Below are positions 5,061 to 8,840 of a stretch of DNA of 40,757 bases, in pieces; position 1 is the first letter of the stretch, and each line of letters begins with the position of its first letter. The notes below the pieces were generated by a model that ran no database searches, had not been told where the DNA came from, and worked only from the letters and a program-made list of their open reading frames with translations. The translations under genes were made by a program, and so were the position numbers. The stretch lies in contig JAAYBF010000021.1 in the NCBI GenBank assembly GCA_012718975.1, positions 1 through 40,757 on the forward strand. The letters run 5' to 3'. The DNA comes from Solirubrobacterales bacterium. GTDB lineage: Bacteria > Actinomycetota > Thermoleophilia > Solirubrobacterales > Thermoleophilaceae.

Positions 5061-5514
5061 CACGAAGATCCTCATCGAGCGCGAGCTCGACGCGCCCAGG
5101 CACCTCGTCTACGAGGCGTGGACGACGCCGGAGCTGGTCGCGCGCTGGTGGCCGTCCGACCGCGGGACGTCCGTCTCGACCGAGATCGACCTGCGCGTCG
5201 GCGGCCGCTGGCGTTACGTGATGCGGACCCCCGACGGCACCGAGGTCGCCTTCCACGGCGAGTACCGCGAGATCGTGCCGAACGAGCGGCTCGTCTCGAC
5301 CGAGGCGTTCGAGGGCATCCCCGACGCCGACGAGCACGCCAGCCTCAACACCCTCACGCTGACCGAGATCGACGGGCGCACCAAGCTCGAGATCCTCGTC
5401 GAGCACCCGACCAAGATGGGTCGCGACATGCATATCGAGTCCGGCATGGAGGGCGGCCTGCAGGACGCGCTCGACCTGCTCGAGGAGATCGCGGCCGAGC
5501 GGGCGCGCGGCTGA
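5017..5514 (+). CDS. SRPBCC/AHSA1-family protein
   Basis: A 165-aa protein with the AHSA1 (Aha1 C-terminal-like, START superfamily) fold: IERELDAPRHLVYEAWTTPELVARWW at the N-terminus, DLRVGGRWRYVMR in the middle, and a final amphipathic helix GGLQDALDLLEEI. These proteins bind hydrophobic ligands in a deep cavity; the ligand is unknown. The start is supported by AAGGAG 5-6 nt upstream, inside the end of arsR. The ArsR-AHSA1 overlap is a common operon, and the pair probably form a small ligand- or stress-responsive unit. Confidence 0.92.
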   Translation: MATTSGTAKVTTIGDTKILIERELDAPRHLVYEAWTTPELVARWWPSDRGTSVSTEIDLRVGGRWRYVMRTPDGTEVAFHGEYREIVPNERLVSTEAFEGIPDADEHASLNTLTLTEIDGRTKLEILVEHPTKMGRDMHIESGMEGGLQDALDLLEEIAAERARG

Positions 5515-5589
5515 CCGATCGCCCAACCGCCCCCGCCGGGCGCCCGTACCACTCCCCGACACGGCAACTGATCAAGAAAGTGGGAGTCC

Positions 5590-6222
5590 ATGATCCGCAA
5601 CATCCGTCTGCTTACGGTCATGTCGCTGATTGCGGCGCTGGCGCTCGGCCTGGCGGCCTGCGGCGGCGACGATGACGACGACTCGTCCGGCGCCGGCGCG
5701 ACGAGCGCGATGACCGAGACCGACGACTCGGCGATGGCGGCGACGCTCATGCTCAACGGCGAGGAGACGGTGCTGGCGCTCGACGCCGACACCGCGGGCG
5801 TCCTCGAGGAGAACCAGGTGACCGTCGCACCCGTGGCGCCCGCGACCGCCGGCGACGCGGGAATCGCGTTCCCGATCACCGGTGGCGAGGTCGACTCCGA
5901 GTCGCTCGCCGGGACGATCGACCACTCCGGCGGCCTGAAGTTCTCGGCCGGCGGGACCGAGGTCGAGCTGACCGACTTCGTGATCGACACCGAGGCCGGG
6001 ACGCTGACCGCGACGCTGCCCGACGGCACGCAGCTGACGACGCTGGACGTCGATCTCAGCGGCCTCGAGCGCTCCGACGAGGGCGGCGCGATCGTCCTCA
6101 CCGGCATCGCCACCACCCTCACCGGCGACGCGGCGACGGCACTCAACGACGCCTTCTCCGTCGAGCTGTTCGAGGGCGGCCTTCCGATCGGCGAGGTCAC
6201 CGTGCGCGCTACCGCCGGCTGA
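5590..6222 (+). CDS. Secreted lipoprotein, HtaA-like domain
   Basis: A 210-aa protein with a type II signal peptide: a basic start, a hydrophobic core, lipobox LAAC with the acylated Cys at 24, then an Asp-rich linker (about 27-45). The mature part contains FPITGGEVD, GTIDHSGGLKFS and LTDFVIDTEAGTLTATL. This recalls HtaA-type domains, which in corynebacteria bind heme; the Tyr and His of classical heme ligation are not obvious here. It is therefore called HtaA-like from pattern memory only. A GTGGGAG ribosome-binding site precedes the ATG. A strong hairpin follows the stop, and the metal-linked cobW gene lies just downstream. Confidence 0.6.
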   Translation: MIRNIRLLTVMSLIAALALGLAACGGDDDDDSSGAGATSAMTETDDSAMAATLMLNGEETVLALDADTAGVLEENQVTVAPVAPATAGDAGIAFPITGGEVDSESLAGTIDHSGGLKFSAGGTEVELTDFVIDTEAGTLTATLPDGTQLTTLDVDLSGLERSDEGGAIVLTGIATTLTGDAATALNDAFSVELFEGGLPIGEVTVRATAG

Positions 6223-6233
6223 CCCGCTCCCCC

Positions 6234-6267
6234 GCGCCGGCCGGGCTCCCGTCCGCCCGGCCGGCGC
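6234..6267 (+). terminator. GC-rich hairpin terminator (no T tract)
   Basis: A perfect 13-bp stem, GCGCCGGCCGGGC (6234-6246) with GCCCGGCCGGCGC (6255-6267), and an 8-nt loop. It starts 12 nt after the lipoprotein stop and ends before the cobW control region. Hairpins without a T tail are common terminators in actinobacteria. Confidence 0.7.
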
Positions 6268-6285
6268 ACCCCCGGGGCGCCGGCC

Positions 6286-6334
6286 GCGAGCCTAGCAGCT
6301 ATTGAGAATGATTCTCAATAGCTGCTAGGCTCGC
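6286..6334 (+). promoter_or_regulatory. Zur/Fur-box-like perfect palindrome with cobW promoter
   Basis: The 24-bp arms (6286-6309 and 6311-6334) around a single G at 6310 match perfectly. The core TTGAGAAT-G-ATTCTCAA (6302-6318) has the 7-1-7 form of Zur/Fur boxes. A -35-like TTGAGA (6302-6307) lies in the core and a -10 TAGGCT (6326-6331) in the right arm, 18 nt apart. The predicted start is the ATG at 6338, so a bound repressor would cover the whole promoter. Confidence 0.8.
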
Positions 6335-6337
6335 CGC

Positions 6338-7549
<1,212 letters not shown>

Positions 7550-7905: not shown

Positions 7906-7964
7906 CCCCGCCGCCCTCCCCGCCGCCCTCCCCGCCGTCGTCCCCGCCGCGGTCGCGCGGCGGC

Positions 7965-7970
7965 TAGGCT
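7965..7970 (+). promoter_or_regulatory. -10 box for leaderless lipoprotein gene
   Basis: TAGGCT is followed by 6 nt and then GTG 7977, the same hexamer and spacing as in front of cobW. No ribosome-binding site is present, so a leaderless mRNA is likely. Confidence 0.6.
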
Positions 7971-7976
7971 GGCTCG

Positions 7977-8840
7977 GTGGCCGGGAGGGTCCTCAGGGCG
8001 CTTGCGCTCGGCGCGGCGGCGGTCGCGCTGGCGATCGGCTGCGGCGACTCAGGCGGCGACGAGACGGTCCCAACCGCGGCCGGGACCGCGGCCGACCCGG
8101 ACCTCGACGCCTTCCCTCGCCCCGAGCCCGGGCAGTCGCCGGCGGCGCTCGCCCAGGCGGCGGGCGCACGGCCGGCCGGCCTGGACCTGCTGACCACCGT
8201 CCACCCCGCCGGGCACTCCCGCTTGGCGTTCACCCTCGAGCGCGACGGACGTCGCGTCACCGGACCGACCGCCGTCTACGCCGTCCCCGCCGCCGATCGG
8301 GACGAGGTCGCCGGCCCGCTTCCCGCGCCCGGCACCGAGCTGCGAACGGCCACCGGCCACGAGGCGACCGTGTACGAGGTCGCGGCGGTCGACCTCCACC
8401 ACCGCGGTCGCTACGACCTGATCGCCCTCACCCGCCAGGGCGGCGACCTGCTCGCCGCCCGCGCGACCATCGACGCCGTCCCGCCGCGTCGGGCAGCAGG
8501 GCCGGCGGTCGGCGAGCCCGTCCCCCTGCCCGCCCCGCTCGCCGCGCAGGCCCGCGGCCGCCCGGCGGCGCTCGTGCTGGGCGGCGACTGCCGCGGCCGC
8601 GACTGCTTCGACCTGGCCGCCGCGCTGCGCCAGGCGACGCTGACGCTCGGCGACCGGGTCGCGATCCTCCACCCGCAACGCGCCGTCGAGCGGCGGCTGC
8701 GCCGGCGCCTGCGCCTCTCCCCCGCCCCCTGGCTGCTGACCGTCGACGGCGACGGCCTGCTCGCCGCCCGTCTCGAGGGCGCGGTCGCTCCCGCGACCGC
8801 CGAGCGGGCGCTCCAGGCGGCGATCGTCCGCGGCGGCTGA
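7977..8840 (+). CDS. Lipoprotein of unknown function, possible thioredoxin-like C-terminus
   Basis: A 287-aa protein with a short signal peptide and lipobox LAIGC (Cys 22), so it is probably anchored outside the membrane. The middle region (about 60-160) has beta-strand-like segments with no family I recognise. The last ~100 residues (AALVLGGDCRGRDCFDLAAALRQ ... PWLLTVDGDGLLAARLEG) read like a thioredoxin-type fold with two Cys spaced C-x4-C, then a Pro before the next strand. A redox role is inference only. GTG 7977 is chosen because the -10 box TAGGCT lies 6 nt before it. It is convergent with the exporter gene, with stops 6 nt apart. Confidence 0.6.
   Translation: MAGRVLRALALGAAAVALAIGCGDSGGDETVPTAAGTAADPDLDAFPRPEPGQSPAALAQAAGARPAGLDLLTTVHPAGHSRLAFTLERDGRRVTGPTAVYAVPAADRDEVAGPLPAPGTELRTATGHEATVYEVAAVDLHHRGRYDLIALTRQGGDLLAARATIDAVPPRRAAGPAVGEPVPLPAPLAAQARGRPAALVLGGDCRGRDCFDLAAALRQATLTLGDRVAILHPQRAVERRLRRRLRLSPAPWLLTVDGDGLLAARLEGAVAPATAERALQAAIVRGG

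Follow-up and report, generated by a model that had tools for sequence, protein, structure and literature searches.

The question raised by this locus is why a Zur-type box in front of zigA, a gene for a zinc metallochaperone, lies at the centre of a perfect palindrome that is far longer than the box itself. The palindrome spans 49 bp (6286-6334) and reads GCGAGCCTAGCAGCTATTGAGAAT-G-ATTCTCAATAGCTGCTAGGCTCGC, with two 24-bp arms that match without a mismatch around a central G at 6310, the same position and sequence as given in the initial annotation. If one mismatch is allowed, the inverted repeat extends to 6283-6337 (27-nt arms, 96%) and abuts zigA, ending at 6337, directly upstream of the start codon (ATG, 6338). 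The runner-up perfect palindrome in the window (the whole 40.8-kb stretch of DNA analysed here), with a spacer of 0 or 1, had 11-bp arms, and the longest in 60 simulated windows of the same dinucleotide content had arms of 13 bp. The number of palindromes with 24-bp arms expected anywhere in such a window is about 5e-8, and the chance that 14 additional bases beyond a 21-bp box would be mirrored at a given box is about 8e-8. The palindrome is real and lies far outside chance. Genome-wide statements are based on pattern searches, while the PWM scan and the palindrome census covered the 40.8-kb window. The initial annotation had proposed looking for further copies in the genome; a pattern search allowing up to three mismatches returned no other copy of the palindrome arm, and the core had one other good match, at znuA. 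Membership of a repeat family or mobile element was rejected on the same uniqueness of the arm and on the lack of any plasmid or viral-contig match.

The gene downstream, named cobW in the initial annotation, occupies 6338-7549 on the plus strand and encodes a COG0523 zinc metallochaperone GTPase of 403 aa with the domains PF02492 and PF07683; its product scored 647.5 bits against the ZigA family model NF038288, above the curated cut-off of 600. The core of the palindrome, TGAGAATGATTCTCA at 6303-6317, has the symmetric 7-1-7 architecture of actinobacterial Zur boxes. Using a PWM built from the orthologue boxes, which includes the core site itself, the core scored 30.5 bits compared to 8.3 bits for the next best site in the window, and no second, overlapping box was detected there. 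Only two good 7-1-7 boxes were found in the 3.2-Mb genome (94% complete): the one before zigA and a second, CGAGAATCATTCTCA, situated just upstream of a ZnuA-family lipoprotein gene (znuA). Standard targets of Zur include genes for zinc uptake and those of COG0523 (PMC6103462). The placement of the box is likewise that of a Zur operator, as it overlaps the predicted promoter and stands before zinc-scarcity genes, namely zigA and znuA here and zigA in the wider order, where a comparable box was present close to the start of zigA at 17 of the 19 other orthologue loci (of the remaining two, one had no box and the other a 5' end that could not be placed). Since the znuA box lies beside the only Fur-family gene detected in the genome and the zigA box recurs at those 17 loci, the Zur-type reading of the core is well supported by comparison, and with it the earlier proposal of a Zur/Fur-like core at the promoter of this COG0523 gene. 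In Streptomyces coelicolor, the Zur box also has a 15-bp symmetric core (TGA..AT.AT..TCA) overlapping the promoter of a zinc-scarcity gene (PMC5472717), whereas here a further 14 bp on either side continue the symmetry, free of mismatches, and the promoter is mirrored. The same pattern applies to ZigA/COG0523 genes under Zur: the protein scores above the ZigA cut-off and the box lies over the promoter as at the orthologues, whereas the predicted leaderless promoter is mirrored on the other strand and no divergent znu gene adjoins it. The locus is a switch of a known kind with an unusual layout; its zinc-control part is ordinary.

The only Fur-family gene that we found (L105:5720-6172, on contig G000:C32, minus strand) is convergent with znuA, and this regulator gene and znuA also lie side by side elsewhere in the family, in several genomes. 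Scored against Fur and Zur models, its protein stayed below every cut-off and came closer to the Fur ones; it carries an Ala aligned with the metal-site Cys79 of S. coelicolor Zur. We infer that this protein is the repressor acting at the zigA box, and that its metal would be zinc, as judged by its apparent targets. Two further loci, separate from znuA (G000:C95:6778-8795 and G000:C64:68122-70542), each hold a pair of ABC-3 metal permease genes, and no convincing Zur-type box was found at either.

A promoter for zigA can be read from the right half of the palindrome. A putative -35-like element, TTGAGA (6302-6307, plus strand), lies within the box, and a -10-like element, TAGGCT (6326-6331, plus strand), follows 18 bp past it and 6 nt before the ATG, in a module also seen at other Zur-type promoters. 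The initial annotation had placed the -35 in the box core and the -10 in the right arm, and these elements do sit there, but both are weak matches to the Escherichia coli consensus and a sigma-70 scan detected nothing. The arrangement of the right arm, box-TAGCTGCTAGGCT-N6-ATG, is a promoter module that recurs elsewhere. Across the genome, GCTAGGCT-N6-RTG occurred 42 times with one mismatch allowed. A reversed-pattern control gave more matches than the pattern itself in this G+C-rich genome and was uninformative, so the motif was tested by whether coding frames follow it: 23 of the 30 cases examined opened frames of coding-type composition, whereas the share was 36% over all RTG triplets in those stretches. 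On this basis, the motif looks like a common leaderless -10 of the organism, and the zigA transcript is probably leaderless, with both its promoter and its start site predicted. In Mycobacterium tuberculosis, mRNAs without a leader are abundant (PMC3898074). Elsewhere in the window, a second exact case, GCTAGGCT-N6-GTG at 7963-7979, precedes an ORF at 7977.

Comparison with related boxes set the two arms apart. The order of box, spacer and TGCTAGGCT seen in the right arm also occurs before zigA at two other loci (box-TTAGCTGCTACGGT-N6-ATG in G120 and box-TTTATTGCTAGGCT in L088), before a ZnuA-like gene at a third (box-CTAACTGCTAGGCT-N6-GTG in G165) and at the znuA of the source genome (box-CTATGCTGCCAGGC), suggesting that the right arm is ancestral. 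The mirrored left arm has no counterpart at the znuA box or at the boxes of related genomes, and distant orthologues possess the box and lack the mirrored arm; the left arm thus appears to be derived and is not conserved. zigA itself was found neither in the four genomes of the same genus nor in the other genomes listed for the family, and was possibly gained by the source lineage, from within the order or from elsewhere. Within the genus, the region of the neighbouring AHSA1 gene can be aligned to G002 (74%), but similarity stops before the palindrome.

Taken as one explanation, we consider it rather probable that a Zur-type operator over a leaderless zigA promoter acquired its mirrored arm through a template switch. 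The operator would be a 7-1-7 site of about 21 bp that overlaps the predicted promoter. When zinc is ample, a metal-loaded dimer of the Fur-family protein would sit over the -35 region and block RNA polymerase; when zinc is scarce, the dimer would leave and ZigA would be made. At least 14 further mirrored bases on each side would lie outside this operator. The right arm would be the working promoter, comprising spacer, TGCTAGGCT and start, and the left arm a reverse-complement copy of it. This copy most likely arose in a single step, during replication, as a strand folded back on itself at the palindromic operator and served as its own template. In such a quasipalindrome template switch, the polymerase, on reaching an imperfect inverted repeat, copies from the nascent strand, and in E. 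coli, template switching makes imperfect repeats more perfect (PMC7202029). The identity of the arms exceeds functional need: 14 of 14 outer positions are mirrored at the zigA palindrome, compared to 2 to 8 of 14 at other boxes of the family and order. A template switch is favoured over additional Zur dimers because even bases neutral to the promoter are mirrored, and independent selection for two promoters explains the symmetry poorly because bases of little importance to a promoter are mirrored as exactly as important ones; a single copying event accounts for it well. As in described products of template switching, a local inverted repeat would have been perfected, including bases without evident function, whereas here the enlargement would start at an operator and span a whole promoter (PMC7202029). 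A template switch is the most likely origin; the same-genus genomes, in which no zigA was found, hold no form of the locus from before the copying. Here it may be possible to read how an operator palindrome seeded its own enlargement and, in a single step, gave rise to a co-regulated promoter facing the other way; confirmation would tie the origin of bidirectional promoters to template-switch mutation.

As a by-product, a template switch would have created a second, leftward promoter, identical to the first and sharing its operator. Because the symmetry is perfect, the same promoter faces left, with a putative mirror -10-like TAGGCT at 6289-6294 and, from symmetry, a mirror -35-like element at 6313-6318, both on the minus strand. 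TAGGCT is thus found on each strand around one centre. The leftward start is predicted near 6282, so that the two predicted starts lie about 56 bp apart. This opposite-strand promoter had not been reported in the initial annotation. It may be a by-product or a relic, and the latter leads to the main rival of the template switch: a relic of a divergent znuA/zigA pair, or a working bidirectional promoter, in which one Zur-type box served two mirrored leaderless promoters with a leftward partner such as znuA, the symmetry being kept or homogenized since both sides were promoters. Relatives lend this some weight, as the closest orthologue (L085, 72%) has a single box between divergent znuA and zigA, and in L088, L091 and L096 the znu genes are divergent from zigA with one or two Zur-type boxes; the znuA promoter of the source genome resembles that of zigA, and bidirectional promoters of symmetric sequence are widespread in bacteria (PMC12825309). 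However, the two sides are not mirror copies in those relatives, and in other genomes of the family znuA lies beside the regulator gene, without zigA. At the locus itself, the left neighbour, a lipoprotein gene at 5590-6222 on the plus strand, is co-directional with zigA, the leftward ORF at 5214-6269 had no family match, and a G+C-rich hairpin (6234-6267, 13-bp arms) between the lipoprotein gene and the palindrome would fall early in any leftward transcript, within about 50 nt of its start. We hold a relic or working bidirectional promoter to be possible, though unlikely. Like known bacterial bidirectional promoters, the palindrome offers RNA polymerase two orientations through its symmetry, whereas here the symmetry is perfect around a repressor box and one side has no evident gene (PMC12825309, PMC10268837). 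That the locus is a symmetric, Zur-type-controlled bidirectional leaderless promoter at which a leftward transcript, or competition between polymerase orientations, forms part of the zinc control of zigA seems improbable to us.

Several minor features were recorded around these promoters. The lipoprotein encoded at 5590-6222 has a sub-threshold match to HtaA, a haem-uptake domain. Between 6234 and 6286, two overlapping G+C-rich inverted repeats perhaps mark the end of the upstream transcription unit; no T run was seen at these repeats or at the 6234-6267 hairpin. The ORF at 5214-6269 was considered as a leftward gene and rejected for its lack of a family match. In the divergent znu/zigA pairs of L085, L088, L091 and L096, both sides often look leaderless.

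The outer arms might alternatively have been selected as an enlarged operator that binds more Zur dimers, either two or oligomers at high zinc. Zur binds znuABC of E. coli as two dimers (PMC6103462), and Zur footprints in S. coelicolor widen at high zinc; that spreading is one-sided and unconnected with a palindrome, however (PMC5472717), and the outer arms here contain no box-like sequence and are missing at the znuA box and at related boxes. The two overlapping dimer sites offered in the initial annotation as a cause of the symmetry accordingly found no backing, and we regard an enlarged operator as quite doubtful. The RNA hairpin suggested alongside them fared worse. A hairpin or cruciform with a role in expression, such as on RNA reading through from the lipoprotein gene, would draw on a very stable fold (a single strand of the 6283-6337 repeat folds at -29 kcal/mol, z -11), but the zigA mRNA is unlikely to contain it, since its predicted start lies beyond the repeat. 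The arms are not conserved, and there is no terminating T run; no intrinsic terminator was predicted. Such a role is highly improbable. Equally hard to credit is an assembly or library artefact in the form of a fold-back chimera, which the draft state of the assembly (265 contigs) might invite, given that the repeat occurs once only and is flanked, within a long contig, by unique sequences unrelated to each other, where a fold-back chimera would usually carry on the inverted copy.

In a survey of 97 zigA loci, milder extensions of the arms were seen around or next to the boxes of two other bacteria, 19 bp in Marinomonas and 17 bp in Algicola, and extended palindromes at zigA boxes may therefore recur, to judge from these loci. 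In Marinomonas communis (L054:2932-2972), an independent Zur-type box upstream of zigA lies in an inverted repeat with 19-bp arms and a 3-nt spacer; the Algicola case, with its 17-bp arms, is at the zigA locus L055. The M. communis repeat runs towards the ribosome-binding site.
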